The notes beneath the pieces were generated by a model. That model was not told the origin of the DNA and did no database searches. It saw only the letters and a list, made by a program, of their open reading frames with translations. A stretch of DNA of 64,000 nt from NCBI RefSeq assembly GCF_000685215.1, contig NZ_ARYJ01000005.1, forward strand, positions 124,001 through 188,000. The letters are read 5' to 3'. This document shows positions 14,634 to 58,578 of this stretch, piece by piece. Source of the stretch: Hyphomonas jannaschiana VP2 (lineage in GTDB: Bacteria > Pseudomonadota > Alphaproteobacteria > Caulobacterales > Hyphomonadaceae). Position 1 is the stretch's first letter; each line of letters starts with the position of its first letter. The position numbers and the translations under genes are program-made.

Positions 14634-15203
14634 ATGGAAGCCCTGTTTACATCCACCGCCGTCGTTGCACTGGCCGAGATCGGCGACAAGACGCAGCTGC
14701 TCGCCATCCTGCTGGCCACCCGGTTCCGCACGCCGCTGCCAATCATCCTCGGCATCCTGGTGGCGACGCTGGCCAATCACTTCCTGGCTGCTCTTGTCGG
14801 CGCGAGTGTCGCCAATATTCTGGACGGCGAATGGTTCCGCTACATCATCGCTGCCTCTTTCGTGATCATGGGTATGTGGACCCTGATCCCCGACCAGCTG
14901 GATGATCTGGACGACAAACCGACCCGGTTCGGCGCCTTCTTTGCAACACTCATCGCCTTCTTCCTGGTGGAGATGGGCGACAAGACACAGCTGGCAACGA
15001 TCGCCCTCGGCGCCCGTTTCGACCAGATCATCTGGGTCACCGCCGGTACCACGCTGGGCATGATGCTGGCCAATGTCCCGGCCGTGTTCCTTGGCCATGA
15101 ACTGATCGAGCGTGTGCCCCTGAACATTGTGCGTTTTATCGCAGCTGCCCTGTTTGTGGTGATCGGTGTCTGGCTGGCCGCGCAGACAGCCGGCTGGGTG
15201 TGA
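14634..15203 (+). CDS. TMEM165/GDT1 (UPF0016) family manganese exporter
   Basis: 189 residues. Two homologous halves each carry the signature E-x-G-D-K-T: VVALAEIGDKTQLLAI (about 9-24) and FFLVEMGDKTQLATI (about 113-127). Six predicted membrane helices. Bacterial members export Mn2+ across the inner membrane. The Mn-sensing riboswitch directly upstream strongly supports this role: expression should rise when Mn2+ is high. Transcribed away from the TetR gene. Confidence 0.92.
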   Translation: MEALFTSTAVVALAEIGDKTQLLAILLATRFRTPLPIILGILVATLANHFLAALVGASVANILDGEWFRYIIAASFVIMGMWTLIPDQLDDLDDKPTRFGAFFATLIAFFLVEMGDKTQLATIALGARFDQIIWVTAGTTLGMMLANVPAVFLGHELIERVPLNIVRFIAAALFVVIGVWLAAQTAGWV

Positions 15204-15276
15204 CCAGACAAGTGTTGACAAAATTTCCCATGAAATCAAAAGTGGAAATGTAGAGTTCGTTAGTGGGGAATCAAAA

Positions 15277-15708
15277 ATGGACAGGCTTTTTCCGGAAATC
15301 ACATCCGTGGGGGATGTGATGCGTCTGGCAAAAGGCGGCGCGATCGCCGGATTGGTGTTCGTCTGTCTGATCCTGCTCGACAGCTTTCTTGGCGGGTCTG
15401 CGTTCGGTGGCTCCGGCGCAGGTCTGCAGGGGGCCGGCGCCAGCCCGGCCATCCAGCTCCTTCTCACTGGCGCAGAGATCGCCGTCATCCTCGTTCTGGC
15501 CTGGCGCGTTTCGACCGGGCGCGGCCTGGTCAGCGCCATCCTGCTGATGGCGCTGTTCTTCCTGTGTGCCCTGTCAGGCATTGATGGCGGCCTCTTCGGC
15601 GTTGCGTGGACCATCGCCTATTTCGGCCTTGGCCTGCTGATGCTGAATGCCATCCGCGCCTGCCTGCGCCACGACGCCTTCATGGCGGAGGCCGCCCGGA
15701 CGAATTGA
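15277..15708 (+). CDS. Membrane protein of unknown function
   Basis: 143 residues with about four hydrophobic segments (GGAIAGLVFVCLILLDSFLG, LLLTGAEIAVILVLAW, VSAILLMALFFLCAL, VAWTIAYFGLGLLMLNAI) and a glycine-rich loop GGSAFGGSGAGLQGAGAS. The start at 15277 is chosen because the upstream frame lacks a ribosome site and starts inside the exporter gene. No family recognised. The 73-base AT-rich gap upstream probably holds its promoter. Confidence 0.65.
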   Translation: MDRLFPEITSVGDVMRLAKGGAIAGLVFVCLILLDSFLGGSAFGGSGAGLQGAGASPAIQLLLTGAEIAVILVLAWRVSTGRGLVSAILLMALFFLCALSGIDGGLFGVAWTIAYFGLGLLMLNAIRACLRHDAFMAEAARTN

Positions 15709-15771
15709 CCTTCCCTCGGCACTGGCGCTTGATGGTGCCAGTCCTGGCGTGAGTCCTGGGGAGGATCAGAC

Positions 15772-16314
15772 ATGCTCGACACCATCGCCACCATTGCCAA
15801 CATTTTTGCGTCCGCCGCCGTTGTGCTGACGCTGGTCTTTATCGGCATCCAGCTGAAGCAGAATGCGGAACTGACGCGCATGGCCGCGGCGCAAACCTCC
15901 GCCCAGATGATGTCCACCAATCTTGGCCGGATCATCGAAAGTCCGGATCTCGCCGAACTGATCACCAGAGAGGGCGCACCGGAAAGCTGGTCCCGGCCCG
16001 AGCGGCTCCGGGCAACCAATTTCCTGTCGGCCAGTTTCCGCCATTATGAAGTTCTGCATACGCACAGACGCTTCGGCGTATTCGAGGAAGAATTATGGGG
16101 CGGCACCGAAGCCCGCCTGCGCGACAGCCTCGATTCCGCCGCCATTCGTGACTGGTGGCAGGAGTCCAAACCCTTCTACGCCAAAAGCTTCGTCGCCTAT
16201 GTCGACGAAATCGTCGCGGAGTGGGAAGCTATCGAAGCGATTGCGGGGATGGGGGATGGGAAATTAAAGGGCGGTGATAGCGAAGCGGGTCCATCAGCTA
16301 AGTTGGCAGATTAG
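15772..16314 (+). CDS. Conserved hypothetical membrane-anchored protein
   Basis: 180 residues. One N-terminal transmembrane helix (IANIFASAAVVLTLVFIGIQL) is followed by LKQNAELTRMAAAQTSAQMM and a helical cytosolic domain with SFRHYEVLHTHRRFGVFEEELWGG. It resembles a widespread uncharacterised family with an N-terminal helix followed by a QN motif. Its last codons run into the AT-rich block and overlap the convergent gene at 16298-16918 by 17 bases; the glycine-rich C-terminus may be an altered end. Confidence 0.65.
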   Translation: MLDTIATIANIFASAAVVLTLVFIGIQLKQNAELTRMAAAQTSAQMMSTNLGRIIESPDLAELITREGAPESWSRPERLRATNFLSASFRHYEVLHTHRRFGVFEEELWGGTEARLRDSLDSAAIRDWWQESKPFYAKSFVAYVDEIVAEWEAIEAIAGMGDGKLKGGDSEAGPSAKLAD

Positions 16315-16918
16315 CCTTTATAAGGACCAAATACTTTCCTGCGAATACTAGCTGATCAATCTGAAGCAGCGTGAGAATGAGTATCGATATTTCTGCAATA
16401 AATTTGAACAACTTACCGATAACACTGCCTTCTGCGGCAGCTCTGTTGAAACCTGCGGCGCCTATCAGCGCAAAAGGAAGGCTCGCCAACCACCCAACCA
16501 ATTTCCAGGCCCACCAAAGTGGATTTAAGGTTCTAATCAACGCACTCAAAAAGTCCCGGTCATATACACCTACTGCCGCCTCAACGGCATCGGTCACAAA
16601 GTGCGGATCCATTTGGTATCTATAGAGTCGGAATAAATTTGCGATTGGGTCCATATTATGGACACGACCGCCAGCAATGGGTGCATCCTGATATCTTACA
16701 ATGGAGTGGCACCCAGCATCAATGATCGCTCTCTGAACATCCGTGATCAGATAGTTGAGCTTTACTCTATTTTGTTGAGCTACATTGCCCTCCACTACTT
16801 CCCCGCCGTGGCCGTGGGCTGTCAGATCATTGTAATATCCGACAAAAAGTTCGTGGAACTCTTTGAGTAATTTTGCACGCCGTCGATTCGACCATAATGG
16901 CAGGTTTTTATAGCCCAA
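16298..16918 (-). CDS. Orphan membrane-associated protein in an AT-rich patch
   Basis: 206 residues from a TTG at 16918 with AAGGGG upstream. Residues 1-120 are soluble (EFHELFVGYYNDLTAHGHGG, RYQDAPIAGGRVHNMDPIA). The C-terminal part has two hydrophobic stretches (WWAWKLVGWLASLPFALIGAAG and FIAEISILILTLLQI). No family recognised. The gene and its flanks (about 16260-16980) are visibly poorer in G+C than every neighbour, suggesting horizontal acquisition. Confidence 0.55.
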   Translation of the reverse strand: MGYKNLPLWSNRRRAKLLKEFHELFVGYYNDLTAHGHGGEVVEGNVAQQNRVKLNYLITDVQRAIIDAGCHSIVRYQDAPIAGGRVHNMDPIANLFRLYRYQMDPHFVTDAVEAAVGVYDRDFLSALIRTLNPLWWAWKLVGWLASLPFALIGAAGFNRAAAEGSVIGKLFKFIAEISILILTLLQIDQLVFAGKYLVLIKANLPT

Positions 16919-16981
16919 AATTTCCCCTTTTTGGGTTTGTCTGCACCAAGATTTCTACTTATGTGATTCTCTGTGGCTCCG

Positions 16982-17308
16982 TCACCCCCAATCCGGCCAA
17001 TCGCGGAACAGGCCGAACTTTACGTTCGTGACCATAGCATTGGCGGCGAAGTGCATCTCATCCACGGGTCCTTTGCGCGATGCTGCCACACGAAAGGCTT
17101 CGTCCAGCTGGGCGAGGTCCCGCGTTTCAATCATGACATCGAACTCCCGGACTGTATCGGGGCGCAGGCCCAGCTTGCAGCGCATCAGTCTCCAGCTCTC
17201 GATTTGTCCATCTCCCTTCAGCCTATTTAGAAATGCTCGTAGCGCTGCCACGAAGGCCCGCTCGTCCGTGCCGGGCTTCAGATCGAACCAGATGTGATAG
17301 ATGTCCAT
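16982..17308 (-). CDS. Conserved hypothetical protein (DUF6614-like)
   Basis: 108 residues, ferredoxin-like pattern: MDIYHIWFDLKPGTDERAFVAALRAFLNRLK, then WRLMRCKLGLRP and EFDVMIETRDLAQLDEAF. It resembles small single-domain proteins annotated DUF6614, recalled from memory rather than searched. Function unknown. It is divergent from the glycosyltransferase at 17367 with a 58-base gap. Confidence 0.65.
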   Translation of the reverse strand: MDIYHIWFDLKPGTDERAFVAALRAFLNRLKGDGQIESWRLMRCKLGLRPDTVREFDVMIETRDLAQLDEAFRVAASRKGPVDEMHFAANAMVTNVKFGLFRDWPDWG

Positions 17309-17366
17309 TGCAAATCACTCGCAAATAAGTTTGCCGGAAGGCCCAGTCTTCTATACGGGAAGGTAT

Positions 17367-18122
17367 ATGTCCGCGACCCCCGCCCTCTCTGTCATCATTC
17401 CCTTTTTCAATGAAGCGGGAAACGTGCATCCCGTGATCGACGAAGTGCACGAACAATTGGTGGGCATTCCGTTTGAGATCATCTGCGTCAACGACGAGTC
17501 TTCGGACGCAACCGCAACGGAGCTGGCCGAGGCAAAAGCGAAGCATCCGGATACGGTTTTTGTATTCAGCCACATCCAGCGCCGGGGCAAGTCCGCTGCG
17601 TTGTTCACCGGTCTGAAAGCTGCACGCGGTGAGTGGGTCCAATTATTGGATGGAGATGGCCAGAACGATCCTGGCGACACGGCCCGCCTGTGGAAGGCAA
17701 TTATTGCCCCTGGCGCCCCGGGCCGGCTCGGCATCATCGCGGGCAAGCGAAACAGCCGCAACGATTCCGGCTTCAAATGGGTGCAGTCACGCGTCGCCAA
17801 CGGCGTGCGCCGCTTCGTGCTGCAAGATGATGCGACCGATACGGGCTGCGGCTGGAAGCTGATCCGCACGGCGGCCTTCCGCGATCTGCCCTATTTTGCC
17901 TCCATGCACCGCTTCCTGCCGGCGCTGATCAAGCGGGCGGGATGGGATGTGCGCGAGGAGCTGGTGAATGACCGGCGGCGCCTCGCAGGGGAGTCGAAAT
18001 ACGGCTTCCTCGGGCGGCTGGGTGCCGGGATCTTTGACCTGATCGGCATGTTCTGGCTGGTCCGCCGGGGCGGCTATGGCATCGCCAGAGAGTGGAACGA
18101 CCCGCGCGCCGGTCAGGACTGA
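17367..18122 (+). CDS. Family 2 glycosyltransferase
   Basis: 251 residues. GT-A fold with SVIIPFFNEAGNVHPVIDEV at the N-terminus, the nucleotide-binding VNDESSDAT, and the DxD-type metal site LLDGDGQNDP. RRLAGESKYGF near the C-terminus matches the dolichyl/undecaprenyl-phosphate mannosyl- or glucosyltransferase group, but the C-terminal membrane helices of ArnC-type enzymes are reduced to one weak segment. The start at 17367 has GGGAAGG upstream. Probably transfers a sugar to a lipid carrier or envelope polymer. Confidence 0.85.
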   Translation: MSATPALSVIIPFFNEAGNVHPVIDEVHEQLVGIPFEIICVNDESSDATATELAEAKAKHPDTVFVFSHIQRRGKSAALFTGLKAARGEWVQLLDGDGQNDPGDTARLWKAIIAPGAPGRLGIIAGKRNSRNDSGFKWVQSRVANGVRRFVLQDDATDTGCGWKLIRTAAFRDLPYFASMHRFLPALIKRAGWDVREELVNDRRRLAGESKYGFLGRLGAGIFDLIGMFWLVRRGGYGIAREWNDPRAGQD

Positions 18123-47188: not shown

Positions 47189-47781
47189 GATGGCAGAACT
47201 CCCCGGATGCGGAAGTAGTCCAGCAATGGCAACAAAGGCAGGCCGAGGATAGAGAAATAATCCCCCTCGATCTTGTTGAAAAGCTGCGCACCCAGTCCTT
47301 CCAATTGATAGGCGCCGACTGTCGAGAGCAGCGGATCCCCGACTTGCTCGACGTATTGTTCGATAAAGTCTTCGCTGAGCGGACGCATGGTCAGTTTTGG
47401 ACGCGCCAGGTGACGCCAGACCGGCTCGCCGTTTTCACAGACGACGATGGCCGTTTCCAGAGTGTGCGCCTTGCCGGACAATTTGCGCAAATGATCCCGC
47501 GCGCCCTCCAGGTCTTTCGGTTTGTCGAACGCCTCGTCACCAAGGGCCAGCATCTGGTCGCCGCCGATCACAAGGCCCGGCCGGCGCTGTGAAATCTTGA
47601 CCGCTTTCAGCTCAGCCAGGCGCATGGCCTGATCCCGCACCGGCAGGCCTTCAGCGCGCAGGCCCGCTTTCATGGCATCTTCATCGACATTCGGGCGCAC
47701 AGCTTCCGCTTCCACCCCTGCTGATGTCAGCAAGCGTCGCCGGCTTTCGCTGCCGGAAGCAAGGATCACGTTTAGAGTCAT
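47185..47781 (-). CDS. Maf-family nucleotide pyrophosphatase
   Basis: 198 residues. House-cleaning NTP pyrophosphatase (dTTP/UTP or modified nucleotides). Signature LASGSESRRRLLTSAGV at the N-terminus, PNVDEDAMK, and VIGGDQMLAL with the catalytic Asp. Four-base overlaps on both sides. Confidence 0.93.
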   Translation of the reverse strand: MTLNVILASGSESRRRLLTSAGVEAEAVRPNVDEDAMKAGLRAEGLPVRDQAMRLAELKAVKISQRRPGLVIGGDQMLALGDEAFDKPKDLEGARDHLRKLSGKAHTLETAIVVCENGEPVWRHLARPKLTMRPLSEDFIEQYVEQVGDPLLSTVGAYQLEGLGAQLFNKIEGDYFSILGLPLLPLLDYFRIRGVLPS

Positions 47782-48620
47782 ATGTGTCCCCGGCGTTCGT
47801 TGAGCAGGTTGAGGATGGCAGCTGCCGTTTCCTCGACAGAGCGTCGGGAGACATCAATCGTGCGCCACTTGTTTCGCTGGAACAGGCGGTTGGCCTGTGT
47901 GACCTCATCGCGCACAGCATCCTCGTCGGCATAGATTGTGTGCTCATCCTGGTTCAGGGAAATCAGGCGCGCGCGGCGGATCTGGACCAGCCGTTCGGCG
48001 CTGATCTTGAGGCCTACAATCATCGGGCCCTTATCGCCCATTTTCTCGATATGCGGCGGCAGCGGCACACCCGGGACGAGCGGGATGTTCCCGGCACGAA
48101 CTTTCCGGTTGGCGAGATATACACAGGTCGGCGTCTTCGATGTGCGGCTGACACCCAGCAAAATAACATCGGCCCCGGTCAGGCTTTCGACATTCTGCCC
48201 GTCATCATGGGCGAGCGTGAAATTGATCGCTTCCATCCGCTCGAAATAATCATCGTCCAGCGCATGCTGGCCTGCGACTTTCTGGTTAGCAGAAATGCCA
48301 AGGTGGCGGCTGAGCATGGCAATGGATGCGTCCAGCACGGGCAGTGTCGGAATGCCCTTCTCACGGCAAAAGGATTCCAGCCTGCCGCGCAGGGCTTCGT
48401 CGGAAATCGTGTACCAGACAACACCTGGCGCAGCCTCGATTTCCCGCATCACCCGTTCCAGCTGGCGTTCAGAGCGGACCAAGTAATAATTGTGCTCCAG
48501 TGCCTGCACATTTTCGAACTGGGCGCAGGCAGCGCGCTGGATGGCGTTCAGCGTCTCCCCTGTCGAATCCGACACAAGGTGAACGTTGAAATAGATGCTG
48601 GGGCGAAGGGACCGAGTCAT
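47778..48620 (-). CDS. ppsR: Pyruvate,phosphate/water dikinase regulatory protein (DUF299)
   Basis: 280 residues. Bifunctional ADP-dependent kinase/phosphorylase controlling PEP synthase or PPDK: HLVSDSTGETLNAI and the P-loop GVSRTSKTPTCVYLANR. First gene of the ppsR-dnaQ operon. Its Caulobacter counterpart (RP001) borders the chromosomal origin on the side opposite hemE, which is the layout here. Confidence 0.93.
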   Translation of the reverse strand: MTRSLRPSIYFNVHLVSDSTGETLNAIQRAACAQFENVQALEHNYYLVRSERQLERVMREIEAAPGVVWYTISDEALRGRLESFCREKGIPTLPVLDASIAMLSRHLGISANQKVAGQHALDDDYFERMEAINFTLAHDDGQNVESLTGADVILLGVSRTSKTPTCVYLANRKVRAGNIPLVPGVPLPPHIEKMGDKGPMIVGLKISAERLVQIRRARLISLNQDEHTIYADEDAVRDEVTQANRLFQRNKWRTIDVSRRSVEETAAAILNLLNERRGHI

Positions 48621-48672
48621 GGTCTCACTGTGTTGCCGAGGTTCGGCGATTTCACAAGACCTGTGACTCGCC

Positions 48673-48681
48673 TGTGGATAG
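48673..48681 (-). promoter_or_regulatory. DnaA-box-like site in the putative origin
   Basis: TGTGGATAG is one base from the complement of the consensus TTATCCACA. It is embedded in CCTGTGACTCGCCTGTGGATA, a composite that recurs in altered form at 48840-48859. Confidence 0.6.
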
Positions 48682-48779
48682 CGCTTTTTGTCCCGCTGGA
48701 ATCACAAAAATCCCACAGGCAGAGGAATCCGACTCCGCGGAATCACCTTCCGTTCCATCTTGTGACTCCAGCAAGACCA

Positions 48780-48795
48780 TTTACGTTTGGTTAAC
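48780..48795 (+). promoter_or_regulatory. CtrA-like site (one mismatch)
   Basis: TTTA-N7-TTAAC, one base from TTAA-N7-TTAAC, 16 bases before the perfect site at 48812. Confidence 0.5.
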
Positions 48796-48811
48796 TATTG
48801 AATCCCGGGCG

Positions 48812-48827
48812 TTAAGACCCGCTTAAC
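48812..48827 (+). promoter_or_regulatory. CtrA-binding site in the putative origin
   Basis: TTAA-GACCCGC-TTAAC matches the full CtrA consensus TTAA-N7-TTAAC. In Caulobacter CtrA bound at such sites blocks initiation in swarmer cells. Confidence 0.75.
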
Positions 48828-48961
48828 CCTGTCCGCCAACCTGTGACTCCTGTGTGGAATTCTCTGGACAAATCCGCACATCACCCTTTTTCCCAAGGAC
48901 TCACTGTCTAATAGTCATAAGCGCCCTGACGGGCTTGTTTTTTGTTTTTGGGAAAATTGCC

Positions 48962-49999
48962 ATGGGCGCCGATGGATCGAAAAAACTGCTTAAGGTTCTC
49001 GGTGGTGAGCGCCTTGAAAGGCCTCCGGTATGGATGATGCGCCAGGCTGGGCGCCATCTTCCCGAATATCTCGAGCTTCGGTCCCGGGCCAAGAACTTCC
49101 TAGATTTCTGCTACACACCCTCCATGGCAGCTGAAGCGACGCTTCAGCCTGTCCGGCGGTATGGCATGGATGGGGCTATTCTCTTTGCAGACATCCTGCT
49201 GGTGCTCGATGCGATGGGTCTGGACGTCAAATTTGAAAAAGGTGTCGGCCCGCTGGTGGAACAGGTTTCAGGACCGGCCGATCTGGACCGCGTGCCGGCC
49301 GTTAAAGCTGCTGACAGACTGTCTCCGGTTTATGAAACTGTTTCACGGGTGCGCGAAGGCTTGCCAGCGGAAACCACACTGATTGGATTTGCCGGATCGC
49401 CCTGGACAGTCAGCCTGTATGCCATCGAAGGGCGCGGAAAGACGGACAAGTCCGATGCCTGGCGCTGGGCTCATGGCCGGCCGGAAGATCTTGCCGCTGT
49501 CATGGACAAGGTCAGCGAGGCGACGGTGGAATATCTTGCCCGTCAGGTTGAGGCAGGTGCCGAAGCGCTCATGCTGTTCGACAGCTGGGCCGAAGGCCTT
49601 CCGGACAATATCTTCCGCGAAGTCATCATCGCGCCGACGCAGAAACTTGTTGCCGGTCTTCGCGCGAGGGGCGTGACTGTTCCCGTCATCGGATTCCCGC
49701 GGGGCGCCGGTGTCATGCTGGAACCGTATGCAAAGGAAACCGGCGTGACCGCAGTCGGGCTCGATACGGCAGCAGTTCCCTCGTTTGTAAATTCGGTTCT
49801 GCCGCCGGATATGCCGGTTCAGGGTCATCTCGACCCGCTGCTGCTGATAGAAGGCGGGCCGCGGATGGAAGCGCGTGTGCGGGAATTGATGGCTGCCTAT
49901 TCCGGCCGTCCCCATATCTTCAATCTCGGCCATGGCATCCGACCGGAGACGCCAATCGTAAATGTCGAGCGCGTTCTGAAGATTCTGCGGGAAGGTTGA
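48962..49999 (+). CDS. hemE: Uroporphyrinogen decarboxylase
   Basis: 345 residues. Decarboxylates uroporphyrinogen III to coproporphyrinogen III in heme synthesis. RPPVWMMRQAGRHLPEYLELR is the N-terminal signature, GFAGSPWTVSLYAIEGRG the second, and GFPRGAGVMLEPYA and NLGHGI are conserved. The start at 48962 gives the family N-terminus; the longer frame extends into the origin region. Followed two bases later by hemH. Confidence 0.97.
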   Translation: MGADGSKKLLKVLGGERLERPPVWMMRQAGRHLPEYLELRSRAKNFLDFCYTPSMAAEATLQPVRRYGMDGAILFADILLVLDAMGLDVKFEKGVGPLVEQVSGPADLDRVPAVKAADRLSPVYETVSRVREGLPAETTLIGFAGSPWTVSLYAIEGRGKTDKSDAWRWAHGRPEDLAAVMDKVSEATVEYLARQVEAGAEALMLFDSWAEGLPDNIFREVIIAPTQKLVAGLRARGVTVPVIGFPRGAGVMLEPYAKETGVTAVGLDTAAVPSFVNSVLPPDMPVQGHLDPLLLIEGGPRMEARVRELMAAYSGRPHIFNLGHGIRPETPIVNVERVLKILREG

Positions 50000-54369: not shown

Positions 54370-56235
54370 ATGACGGGAACTTCCCGCTTTGATGTCATTG
54401 TTGTCGGCGGCGGCCATGCCGGATGTGAAGCTGCATCTGCAGCCGCTCGCTATGGCGCGAAAACCGCGCTCGTCACCCACAAGATTTCGACCATCGGTGA
54501 GATGAGCTGCAATCCGGCGATTGGCGGACTGGGCAAGGGACACCTCGTCCGGGAGATTGATGCCCTGGACGGTCTGATGGGGCGGTTGGCCGACAAGGCT
54601 GGAATCCAGTTCCGCATGCTGAATCGGTCCAAGGGACCTGCCGTCTGGGGTCCGCGTGCGCAGATCGACCGGAAGCTCTATCGCCAGGCCATGCAGGAAG
54701 CGATCCTGAACCATGAAAACCTGACCGTCATTGAAGATGGTGCCGAAGACCTGATCATTGAGGATGGACATGTCGCCGGGGTGATTGGCCTGAGCGGCGA
54801 TAAATATCATGCGCCCAAGGTCGTGATCACAACCGGCACGTTCCTGAAGGGCGAGATCCACATTGGCGCCAAGCGTATTCCGGCCGGACGTGTGGGTGAG
54901 GCGCCGGCGATTGGCCTTTCGGACCGGCTCTACACCATGGACCTGCCAATGGGCCGGCTGAAAACCGGCACACCTGCCCGGCTCGATGGCCGTACCATCG
55001 CCTGGGATCGGCTGGAAATACAGCCGGCCGATGATGAGCCAGTGCCCTTCTCTTATCTGACAGACCGGATCGAAGTACCCCAGATCTCGTGCGGCATCAC
55101 GTGGACTACGCCGGAGACCCACGCGATCATCGAAGAGAACATGGAACAGTCGGCCGTCTACTCCGGCGCAATTGCCGGCCGGGGCCCGCGTTACTGCCCT
55201 TCGATTGAGGACAAGGTGAACCGGTTTGCTGACCGGGACCGTCACCAGGTCTTCCTGGAACCAGAGGGTCTCGACGATCATACTGTTTATCCGAATGGAA
55301 TTTCCACGTCGCTCCCCGAAGACGTTCAGGAGCGGTTTGTCCGGACGATCCCCGGTTTGGAAAGCGTGAAAATTCTCCAGCACGCCTATGCGATCGAATA
55401 TGATTATGTGGATCCGCGCGCTCTGAATGCGGCTTTGGAAGTCAAAGTTCAGCCCGGACTTTATCTGGCGGGCCAGATCAATGGCACGACCGGATATGAA
55501 GAAGCCGGTGCACAGGGCCTGATGGCGGGTCTGAATGCGGCGCGGGCCGCTGACGGCAAGGACCCGGTCATTCTGGATCGGGCCGAAGCCTATATCGGCG
55601 TTCTGATCGATGATCTGATCACACGCGGCGTCACCGAACCCTATCGGATGTTCACATCCCGGGCGGAGTACCGCCTCGCGCTTCGCGCGGACAATGCCGA
55701 TCAGCGGCTCACACAAAAAGGGATAGACGCCGGATGTGTGAGTGAAACACGGATGTCGATGTTTCACGTGAAACATTTGGCCCTCTCGAAATCCCGAAAA
55801 ACGCTCCAAACCCTGTCTTTGTCCCCGGCAAAAGCCCGCGAGGCCGGGTGGAACGTTAATCAGGATGGCCGCGTCCGGACCGCCTGGGAGTATCTCGGAT
55901 ACAAGGACATCTCACTCGAGACCTTATCGAAGGTCTGGCCGGAACTTTCGGACATTGATCCGGCCATCGCGGCGCAATTGGAAATCGAGGCGCTCTATTC
56001 CGGATATATCGAACGGCAGGCCGGCGATGTCGAAGCCCTTCGCCGCGATGAGGCGTTGCAGATTCCGGATGAAATCAATTATGCGGCTATTGGTGGACTT
56101 TCCAATGAGGTCCGTCAGAAACTGGAATCCATCCGCCCGGCCACGCTTGGCCAGGCGTCCCGCATCGAAGGGGTCACTCCGGGTGCTTTGACGGCATTGC
56201 TTGGTCATGTGAAGCGCCGCCGGAAGACAGGCTAA
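54370..56235 (+). CDS. mnmG: tRNA uridine-5-carboxymethylaminomethyl modification enzyme MnmG
   Basis: 621 residues. FAD enzyme partner of Mnm[17 protein letters not shown] (FAD loop), [46 protein letters not shown] and [14 protein letters not shown]. The start at 54370 is taken for the normal short N-terminus; GTG at 54358 is possible. A perfect parS is embedded in its coding sequence at 55760-55775, where it encodes FHVKH. Confidence 0.97.
55760..55775 (+). promoter_or_regulatory. parS centromere site 1 (inside mnmG)
   Basis: TGTTTCACGTGAAACA, a 16/16 match to the bacterial parS consensus. ParB, encoded 1.9 kb downstream, nucleates here. Confidence 0.95.
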
Positions 56236-56238
56236 GTC

Positions 56239-56859
56239 ATGGTAAATCAGGATCGTGCGGCCTTTCTGGCCGCTGAGGATGTTTCACGTGAAACACTGGA
56301 GCGGCTCGACCGGATCATCGATACGCTGGATGTCTGGCGAAAGCGGAGCAATCTGATCGGGCCACGCGAATGGCCTGCGATCTGGACGCGCCATGTCGCC
56401 GATTGTTTCCAGCTTCTGGATCATCTTCCCAATGACGCAAGGGTCGTGGATCTTGGCTCAGGCGCGGGGTTTCCGGGTCTGATCATCGCGGCAGCCCGGC
56501 CAGGGGGCCATGTGACCATGATCGAGAGCGTCGGCAAGAAGTGCGCTTTCTTGCGTGCGGCTATCGAAGCGGCGGGTTTGAGTGCCACAGTCCGCCAGGA
56601 ACGGGTGGAATCTGTCGGGCCAGTGTCTGCAGATTATGTCACCGCACGCGCTTTTGCGCCGCTTCCGAAACTGCTCGACTATGCGGCGCCCTGGCTGAAA
56701 CAGGGTGCAACAGGGCTTTTCCTCAAGGGCGAACGCTGGAAAGAAGAATTGACGGAGGCCAGCCAAACATGGAACTTCGCTTATGAGGCGATTCCAAGCC
56801 GGGTTGGTGGGTCAGGTACAATTCTGATTGTCAGGGAGCTACGAGGTGGCAGGCATTAG
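56239..56859 (+). CDS. rsmG: 16S rRNA (guanine-527-N7)-methyltransferase RsmG
   Basis: 206 residues. SAM methyltransferase: DVSRETLERLDRIIDTLDVWRKRSNLIGPRE at the N-terminus, VVDLGSGAGFPGLIIA (motif I), and ARAFAPLPKLLDYAAPWLK. Three bases after mnmG; its last codons overlap the parA start. Contains the second parS site. Confidence 0.96.
   Translation: MVNQDRAAFLAAEDVSRETLERLDRIIDTLDVWRKRSNLIGPREWPAIWTRHVADCFQLLDHLPNDARVVDLGSGAGFPGLIIAAARPGGHVTMIESVGKKCAFLRAAIEAAGLSATVRQERVESVGPVSADYVTARAFAPLPKLLDYAAPWLKQGATGLFLKGERWKEELTEASQTWNFAYEAIPSRVGGSGTILIVRELRGGRH
56280..56295 (+). promoter_or_regulatory. parS centromere site 2 (inside rsmG)
   Basis: TGTTTCACGTGAAACA again, 16/16, with starts 520 bases apart from site 1. 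It encodes part of DVSRETL in RsmG. Confidence 0.95.
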
Positions 56860-57658
56860 GCCCAGAATCTTTGCCGTCGTGAACCAAAAGGGTGGCGTCG
56901 GTAAAACTACAACTTCCATCAATCTCGGGACAGCGCTCGCCGCCGTCGGACGCCGGGTGCTCATCGTCGACTTCGACGCACAGGGCAATGCGTCAACCGG
57001 CCTTGGAATCGAGCGGACAGACCGTGCAACCACGTCCTACGACATTGTCGTGGACCGTTTGCCGCTGGAGCAGGCGGTTCTGTCGACCATCGTTCCTCGC
57101 CTGGACATTGTTCCGGGGGATGAGAACCTGTCAGGCGTCGAGACGGAACTGGCCGCAGACCCGCACCGGTCTTACCGTCTGCGCGAGGCGCTCCACAACT
57201 ATGTCGACCGCGCAGAAGAACAGGGTCTGCCGCGTTACGATTACATTCTCATTGATTGCCCGCCGTCACTGTCGGCACTGACGATGAATGCCATGACGGC
57301 CGCCGATGCGCTGCTGGTTCCGTTGCAGTGTGAGTTCCTCGCGCTGGAAGGCCTCAGCCAGCTGTTGCGCACGGTGGATGTTGTCCGCCAGGGGCTGAAC
57401 CCGAATCTGGAAATCCAGGGCGTTGTGCTCACCATGTATGATCGCCGGAACAATCTGTCCGACCAGGTCGCCGATGAAGTCCGCGCCTTCTTTGGCAACA
57501 AGGTCTACAATACGGTAATTCCGCGCAATGTGCGTCTGTCTGAGGCGCCGTCCTTCGGTAAGCCAGCGCTTCTTTATGATTACCGTTGTCCGGGCAGCGA
57601 GGCGTACATCCGACTGGCCTCGGAAGTGCTCCAGCGCGAGAAGGCACGGGCGGCCTGA
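56846..57658 (+). CDS. parA: Chromosome partitioning ATPase ParA
   Basis: 270 residues from a GTG at 56846, with GGGAG upstream, overlapping rsmG by 14 bases. Deviant Walker A VVNQKGGVGKTTTSINL (Lys15 and Lys20 type), DFDAQGNAST and the Walker B LIDCPPSLSALT. Drives ParB-parS movement toward the new pole. Confidence 0.97.
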   Translation: MAGIRPRIFAVVNQKGGVGKTTTSINLGTALAAVGRRVLIVDFDAQGNASTGLGIERTDRATTSYDIVVDRLPLEQAVLSTIVPRLDIVPGDENLSGVETELAADPHRSYRLREALHNYVDRAEEQGLPRYDYILIDCPPSLSALTMNAMTAADALLVPLQCEFLALEGLSQLLRTVDVVRQGLNPNLEIQGVVLTMYDRRNNLSDQVADEVRAFFGNKVYNTVIPRNVRLSEAPSFGKPALLYDYRCPGSEAYIRLASEVLQREKARAA

Positions 57659-57663
57659 TCGGG

Positions 57664-58578
57664 ATGGCGAACGAACCCAAACAAAAGCCAAGCCGCCTGG
57701 GCCGGGGTCTCTCAGCCCTCATCGGAGAGGTGGAAGCGTCCACGCCAGCAAAGCCGGAGCCGGGCACAGCACCGGCAGCCAATGGTGTGAACGAGCTTTC
57801 GATCAAGGACATCCGGCGTAACCCAGACCAGCCTCGCCGCACATTCGATGATGCGGCGCTACAGGAACTCGCAGATTCCATCCGCAGCAAAGGCGTGCTC
57901 CAGGCAATTCTTGTCCGGCCAGATCCGAAGGAACCGGGGAAGTACCAGATCATCGCGGGTGAACGCCGCTGGCGGGCCGCCCGCCTGGCGGGTCTGGATT
58001 CCATTCCTGCTGTTGTGCGAGATCTGAACGAGCTGGAATTGCTCGAAGTCGGCATCATCGAGAACGTTCAGCGCGCTGACCTGAACCCGATCGAAGAGGC
58101 GGAAGCCTATGAGGCGCTGATGAACCGGTTTGGCCGGACGCAGGAAAGCCTCGCCAGCAGTGTCGGCAAAAGCCGTGTGCACATCACGAACACGCTTCGT
58201 CTCTTGCAGCTGCCAGAAGCGGCCCGCGCATATGTGAGGGCAGGCAAGGTGACGGCCGGCCACGCCCGGGCAGCTCTTGGTGCGTCAGATCCTGAAGCCG
58301 TGATCGAAATGGCGGCCGAACGGGGCCTGAGCGTTCGGGAAGTCGAGGCTCTGGTAAAGGGCGCGCGCGAAGGTGATGGCGTTGCAAGTGCTTCGACCAG
58401 GTCCAAGGCGCCTGAAAAGGATGTCGACACCGAAGCGCTGGAAGCAGATCTGATGCGACAGCTCGGCCTGCAGGTGGATATTCGCCACGGCAAGAATGGC
58501 GGTGAATTGCGGATCAAGTATCGCGACCTGGAACAGTTGGACGATGTGTGCCGCCGGCTGACACGCCGGAAGCCGTGA
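57664..58578 (+). CDS. parB: Chromosome partitioning protein ParB
   Basis: 304 residues. CTP-binding ParB: LGRGLSALIGE at the N-terminus (ParA contact), GVLQAILVRP and GERRWRAARLAG (CTPase motifs), ENVQRADLNPIEEAEAY, HTH SSVGKSRVHITNTLRLLQLP, and a C-terminal dimerisation domain. Five bases after parA. Binds the parS sites at 55760 and 56280. Confidence 0.97.
   Translation: MANEPKQKPSRLGRGLSALIGEVEASTPAKPEPGTAPAANGVNELSIKDIRRNPDQPRRTFDDAALQELADSIRSKGVLQAILVRPDPKEPGKYQIIAGERRWRAARLAGLDSIPAVVRDLNELELLEVGIIENVQRADLNPIEEAEAYEALMNRFGRTQESLASSVGKSRVHITNTLRLLQLPEAARAYVRAGKVTAGHARAALGASDPEAVIEMAAERGLSVREVEALVKGAREGDGVASASTRSKAPEKDVDTEALEADLMRQLGLQVDIRHGKNGGELRIKYRDLEQLDDVCRRLTRRKP

Follow-up and report, generated by a model that had tools for sequence, protein, structure and literature searches.

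The gap between ppsR and hemE in Hyphomonas jannaschiana VP2 is best explained, with a probability of about 0.7, as an origin of the Caulobacter Cori kind in which four of eight presumed DnaA boxes have been recoded as CcrM targets, so that hemimethylation may delay re-initiation. The original prediction of an origin in this gap was right but incomplete, as it overlooked the strongest feature of the gap, namely an array of GANTC sites (the CcrM target) and its overlap with DnaA-type boxes. The location of the origin itself is already published for the genus Hyphomonas, and as an origin the gap is ordinary; what is new is that CcrM sites overlap conserved DnaA-type boxes. The accessible open-access literature yielded no GANTC-containing DnaA boxes, and earlier remarks on GANTC in Cori are possible outside open-access papers.

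Location of the origin

The source genome is a draft of 3.64 Mb in 30 contigs, and the window, that is, the whole stretch of 64,000 nucleotides analyzed, corresponds to positions 124001-188000 of contig C5 (369,354 bp). Family matches confirmed the gap as predicted, with a PPDK/PEP synthase regulator on one side and hemE on the other. The features of the neighborhood, in window coordinates, are as follows:

48621..48961, no strand: origin interval, the ppsR/hemE gap (skew minimum, synteny, nine GANTC, kept across the genus)
47778..48620, minus strand: ppsR, PPDK/PEP synthase regulator (NF003742, 316 bits)
48962..49999, plus strand: hemE (TIGR01464, 360 bits)
55760..55775, plus strand: perfect parS site
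56280..56295, plus strand: perfect parS site
56828..57658, plus strand: parA (PF13614, PF01656; the true start may be ORF-internal)
57586..58578, plus strand: parB (PF02195, PF17762, PF23552; the true start may be ORF-internal)

The partitioning genes had been expected within 9 kb of the gap; the two perfect parS sites and the parA and parB ORFs are indeed present, but parB ends 9.6 kb from it.

The cumulative GC skew over 280 kb of the contig (C5:1-280000) has its minimum at window position 48926, within the gap and hence not far from 48.6-49.0 kb. In a close relative assembled as a single contig (G074; HemE 97% identical, hemE at 3.359 Mb), the skew is positive in 10/10 sampled 20-kb stretches at 1-1.595 Mb and negative in 10/10 at 1.75-3.34 Mb, a pattern that places one skew flip inside the 130 kb holding hemE and the other at 1.6-1.75 Mb. 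In H. neptunium, the marker frequency peaks close to hemE, parAB is about 7 kb away and there are two parS sites (Jung 2019, PMC6650430), and CtrA ChIP-seq has identified a site adjoining the origin (PMC7200025). According to the former report, neither the skew nor the dnaA gene nor DnaA sites allowed a clear origin call in that species (PMC6650430).

The position of the skew minimum and synteny, along with the published origins near hemE in relatives, make it nearly certain that the ppsR-hemE gap is the chromosomal origin of this Hyphomonas genome and that it is of the Caulobacter Cori kind. It is very improbable that the true origin lies elsewhere and the gap is a conserved regulatory region: the irregular skew over 20 sampled stretches of another single-contig genome (G016, with the gap at the contig junction) would agree with this, but the skew minimum in the gap, the flip in G074, the marker frequency near hemE in H. 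neptunium (PMC6650430) and the nearby parS and parAB all speak for the origin.

Three observations concern other parts of the genome. The dnaA gene is on contig C1, not on the origin contig, and the ORF that follows it looks, on reading, like a polymerase clamp. Contig C13 (L127:1378-1743) encodes a 121-aa protein whose sole domain is PF08299, the C-terminal DNA-binding domain of DnaA (50.8 bits), possibly a competitor at DnaA-type sites. At window positions 15000-18000 the GC content is 0.55, compared to about 0.62 around, with a skew shift at the edge; this stretch is perhaps an insertion.

GANTC sites and CACA cores in the gap

Nine GANTC sites are found in the 341-bp gap versus 0.61 expected from a 680-kb sample of the same genome (1222 GANTC, 1.80 per kb), the Poisson probability being 1.9e-8 per window and about 4e-5 across the sample. 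No other 341-bp window of the sample is as dense as the one located here (10 GANTC), the runner-up having 6. When the gap was shuffled 5000 times with dinucleotides preserved, the GANTC count never reached nine (mean 1.49, maximum 8), and at least four TGTGANTC never occurred (0/5000).

The survey of this locus covered 105 genomes of the family, 103 of them with a HemE match (42 in the study genus) and two without a hemE match (G031 and G102). The gap was readable in 41 of the 42 study-genus genomes, being cut by a contig end in G011; anchoring failed for three of the 114 rows (G011, G109 and G027), and G026, for which no locus was obtained, was outside the survey. Each of the 41 readable Hyphomonas gaps contains 5-10 GANTC (mean 8.0), which corresponds to 22.6 per kb compared to 1.7 in the flanks. 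By genus, the mean number per gap is 10.2 in g18 (range 2-14, 13 gaps), 12 in g13 (one gap), 5.2 in g11 (29 gaps), 5.0 in g12 (three gaps), 4 in g16 (one gap), 3 in g14 (one gap), 2.3 in g17 (three gaps), 1.7 in g15 (seven gaps) and 1.5 in g10 (two gaps); ten gaps from other families have 0-6 each. The gaps of g18 (e.g. L198, L204, L205) and g13 (L193), with up to 14 GANTC mostly off CACA cores, represent another form of CcrM-site wealth within the family; GANTC wealth can serve something else. One Hyphomonas gap (G083, L142) is 754 bp long with 8 GANTC, compared to about 340 bp usually, due to an assembly fault or an insertion.

For the analysis of boxes we aligned 40 Hyphomonas gaps (39 distinct rows), omitting the 754-bp gap. 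The alignment shows eight conserved CACA cores, of which five are present in 40/40 rows and three (A0, A1 and A2) in 37/40, the three missing rows being 287-bp gaps shortened by the scripted choice of the ppsR start. Six cores form same-strand pairs 11 bp apart (A1/A2, B1/B2 and C1/C2), and A0 and S are single. In four boxes, referred to as marked, the core overlaps a GANTC site. The elements of the gap are:

48648..48656, plus strand: CACA box A0, GATTTCACA (CACA in 37/40 Hyphomonas rows, GANTC form in none)
48662..48670, minus strand: marked box A1, CGAGTCACA, with GANTC at 48665-48669 (CACA in 37/40, GANTCACA in 31/40)
48673..48681, minus strand: regular box A2, CTATCCACA, 11 bp from A1 (CACA in 37/40, GANTC form in 0)
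48698..48706, plus strand: marked box B1, GGAATCACA, with GANTC at 48699-48703 (GANTCACA in 40/40, with all four letters at N)
48709..48717, plus strand: box B2, AATCCCACA in the study genome, 11 bp from B1 (CACA in 40/40, GANTCACA in 16/40)
48725..48744, no strand: three GANTC outside CACA boxes (48725, 48731 and 48740; in 29, 33 and 29 of 40 rows)
48761..48769, minus strand: marked single box S, GGAGTCACA, with GANTC at 48764-48768 (CACA in 40/40, GANTCACA in 39/40)
48780..48795, plus strand: predicted one-mismatch CtrA site, TTTACGTTTGGTTAAC
48800..48804, no strand: GANTC (16/40 rows)
48812..48827, plus strand: predicted full CtrA site, TTAAGACCCGCTTAAC
48842..48850, minus strand: marked box C1, GGAGTCACA, with GANTC at 48845-48849 (CACA in 40/40, GANTCACA in 38/40)
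48853..48861, minus strand: regular box C2, AATTCCACA, 11 bp from C1 (CACA in 40/40, GANTC form in 0)
48863..48871, minus strand: candidate for a third, weak box in the C array, TTGTCCAGA (two mismatches compared to TTATCCACA; TGTGGA.{6,9}TGGA.AA in 33/40 rows)
48898..48902, no strand: GANTC near hemE (10/40 rows)
48917..48934, plus strand: conserved ATAAGCGCCCTGACGGGC, short hairpin ahead of hemE (38/40 Hyphomonas rows, 0/29 g11 gaps)

The DnaA-like box noted originally is A2, which has one mismatch compared to TTATCCACA. The listed strong DnaA boxes (TTATCCACA, TGATCCACA, TTGTCCACA and TCATTCACA) do not occur in the gap. GANTCACA is found 20 times in the 680 kb, four of them in the gap; three copies, all in the gap, have a second core at the spacings described above. 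Box B2 has the GANTCACA form in 16/40 rows, as opposed to 22/40 rows ending with CCACA.

Both CtrA sites were present as predicted, the full TTAA-N7-TTAAC site at 48812 and the one-mismatch site at 48780. TTAA-N7-TTAA occurs only once in the 64-kb window and in 18/5000 dinucleotide shuffles of the gap; the strict motif is found somewhere in the gap in 31/40 Hyphomonas rows, and all 40 have it with at most one mismatch. The predicted T-rich tract exists (about 48935-48954) but is not retained as a T tract in the aligned relatives. We rejected it as an unwinding element: it is unconserved and the AT profile is nearly flat, with the mean peaking at positions -60 to -41 from hemE at just 0.59 and no clear unwinding element in the profile. 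The folding of the ATAAGCGCCCTGACGGGC hairpin stretch does not exceed that of shuffled sequences (z 0.35 and 0.20), and the Rfam search of window positions 40000-64000, which include it, matched no family at the gathering threshold. Close to the ppsR start, TTGCCG (about 48637-48642) is found in 38/40 Hyphomonas gaps and 0/29 g11 gaps.

The GANTC sites could belong to hemE or ppsR promoters that overlap the origin and are controlled by GcrA and CcrM, the overlap with CACA cores then being irrelevant to replication control. Both regulators are encoded in the genome (CcrM with 538 bits to 6pbd, residues 12-363 of 367), intergenic regions of CcrM-bearing Alphaproteobacteria are enriched in GANTC more than 1.5-fold (PMC3973325), and the gaps of g18 and g13 are rich in GANTC without core overlap; GcrA ChIP-seq exists for H. 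neptunium (PMC7200025). We nevertheless regard this explanation as unlikely. The density in the gap is 26 GANTC per kb versus 2.66 in noncoding regions of the same contig (12 in 4508 bp, 29 stretches defined by a crude ORF mask), and the sites are spread over some 240 bp, the best-kept ones being inside CACA boxes in fixed pairs. A simple scan of 48560-49060 (sigma-70 for promoters) identified neither a promoter nor a terminator ahead of hemE, which is weak evidence against promoters.

Evolution of the marked boxes

Comparison with Ponticaulis links the CACA cores to DnaA boxes. Its two rows (one of them G097) repeat the order and orientation of the eight cores, with distances from hemE agreeing within 4 bp: -306+, -301-, -290-, -256+, -244+, -201-, -124- and -113- in Ponticaulis and -305+, -300-, -289-, -255+, -244+, -201-, -120- and -109- in the study genome, with a few extra cores in each. 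At the four marked places Ponticaulis has TTTTCCACA, TAGTCCACA, TCATCCACA and TCATCCACA, that is, the DnaA-box-like TCCACA where Hyphomonas has GANTCACA. In the seven g15 gaps, a strict scan identified CCACA at A1 in 5/7, at A2 in 7/7 and at C1 in 7/7, and found S in 3/7; the B pair is spaced 12 bp there and hence was missed. In g11 the A pair is present in 29/29 gaps (CCACA at A1 in 29 and at A2 in 27), and the B and C pairs are absent.

DnaA reads its box with the stretches PRQIAMYL and RDHTTV. Domain IV of the DnaA encoded in the genome retains both of them, as does DnaA 8btg. Strong boxes are TCATTCACA in Helicobacter pylori and TGATCCACA in Caulobacter (PMC4285127), which implies that some DnaA proteins accept a TCACA ending and some accept a G at position 2. 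Taken together, the conserved positions and spellings suggest that the CACA cores are quite probably DnaA boxes that would be occupied by DnaA. The TGTGANTC elements match known DnaA boxes poorly and might instead be iteron-like sites of another protein; this seems distinctly unlikely given TCCACA at the same places in Ponticaulis, the alternation of GANTCACA with TCCACA-type forms at B2 and the invariance of CACA.

Along the HemE tree of 40 rows, the N of GANTC underwent five changes in each of A1, B1 and S and four in C1; positions 2, 3 and 5 of the marked boxes change 0-2 times on the same tree, CACA does not change, and the mean over 334 alignment columns is 3.42 changes. The unmarked boxes A2 and C2 have T at position 4 in 37/37 and 40/40 rows, respectively; their position 3 is variable, as is position 2 of A2. 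A free N with almost fixed G, A, T and C would be the look expected of a CcrM site over a CACA core.

Another explanation is that these are ordinary weak DnaA boxes, GANTCACA being a local spelling and methylation a by-product with no effect on initiation. The H. pylori box TCATTCACA indicates that certain DnaA proteins bind boxes ending with TCACA well (PMC4285127), the origins of Ponticaulis and g10 are unmarked in the presence of CcrM, and Caulobacter initiation has been reported not to require CcrM (PMC6090056). On the other hand, selection for DnaA binding alone is not expected to hold G2, A3 and T5 and yet leave free position 4, where A2 and C2 invariably have T. We consider the by-product explanation rather unlikely, and the marked boxes are likely DnaA boxes recoded into CcrM targets. 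It is highly probable that the four marked boxes are methylated.

Marked boxes occur in the study genus (g1), in g14 (B1 and C1) and in two of three g17 gaps (B1); none were found at these sites in g10, g11, g15, g18 or the rows from other families. The absence of CcrM as the cause of unmarked origins was rejected, as CcrM is present in 23/23 genomes tested, including Ponticaulis and g10. The origins of Ponticaulis and g10 have few GANTC, which means that replication in general does not depend on marking. The label "at least two marked boxes" takes four changes on the tree, two of which concern G011 and G083, whose boxes lack scores. The simplest history, with the polarity of change presumed, would be that older boxes were recoded on the branch leading to g1, g10, g14 and g17 (support 94/93), with marking lacking or lost in g10.

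Possible control by methylation and comparison with known origins

The proposed mechanism would be as follows. DnaA would assemble on eight CACA-core boxes, the three pairs and the singles A0 and S, and CtrA would bind at 48812 and 48780. Boxes A1, B1, S and C1, with GANTCACA in place of the Ponticaulis TCCACA, would be CcrM targets and would become fully methylated late in the cell cycle. Firing would render the marked boxes, four of eight, hemimethylated at once on both sister origins; until CcrM returns, hemimethylation would weaken the filling of these boxes by DnaA, directly or via a reader protein, and the weaker filling would delay a second firing without SeqA.

Several published observations bear on this scheme. 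CcrM is active only in predivisional Caulobacter cells (PMC6090056), and GANTC sites near the origin are hemimethylated in about 80% of cells in a mixed culture (PMC3973325). Published views on a direct action of CcrM at the main alphaproteobacterial origin conflict: in a 2008 model, methylation of Cori is needed for initiation (PMC2217572), whereas according to a 2018 review CcrM is not required for Caulobacter initiation (PMC6090056). The latter counts against control by methylation, as do the unmarked CcrM-bearing relatives and the GANTC-rich gaps of g18 and g13 with little core overlap. The explanation as a whole is also weakened by the methylation-independent binding of RepC to its origin in vitro (PMC6090056), the lack of B and C pairs in g11, the absence of the listed strong DnaA boxes and the AT profile. 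We put the chance that methylation changes initiation at somewhat less than even. Still more tentative is the suggestion that the marked boxes form a SeqA-free once-per-cycle lock, a counterpart of E. coli sequestration that would have evolved by rewriting TCCACA boxes in a main origin.

The occurrence of CcrM targets in about half of the presumed initiator sites suggests a simple possible means against double firing. The shared box positions, unmarked in Ponticaulis and marked in Hyphomonas, both with CcrM, constitute a natural experiment, and the effect of hemimethylation on DnaA is measurable on short fragments. Boxes that are perhaps spelled differently may also explain the unclear DnaA-site searches in H. 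neptunium (PMC6650430).

The origin of H. neptunium (PMC6650430, PMC7200025) belongs to the same genus and is similar in its location near hemE, the two parS, parAB about 7 kb off and the adjoining CtrA site. It differs in that CcrM sites and the box layout are not described in the accessible text, "gantc" and "ccrm" being absent from the main text of PMC7200025. The repABC origins, for example Agrobacterium ori2, are also rich in GANTC, and hemimethylation has been proposed to prevent their re-firing (PMC11514494); however, ori2 is a RepC-dependent secondary origin, whereas the gap studied here is the main chromosomal one.

In E. coli oriC, similarly, the methylation motif is enriched and overlaps the weak sites R5, I2, I3, tau1 and tau2, which are blocked by SeqA (PMC4285127). 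The difference is that GANTC and CcrM take the place of Dam here, and SeqA (PF03925) had no match in the Hyphomonas genome, with a positive E. coli control. Without a SeqA match, the gap is not classed among the Dam/SeqA sequestered origins, although its motif is enriched and overlaps putative boxes (4/8).

Finally, Cori of Caulobacter crescentus, compared here by published descriptions, also adjoins hemE and contains TTAA-N7-TTAA CtrA sites and weak DnaA boxes (PMC4468827, PMC4285127). It differs in its G-boxes (TGATCCACA) and W-boxes (TCCCCA), both absent from the gap and found in 0/40 and 10/40 Hyphomonas rows, respectively. The gap thus represents the same kind of origin as Cori, with a different type of box.
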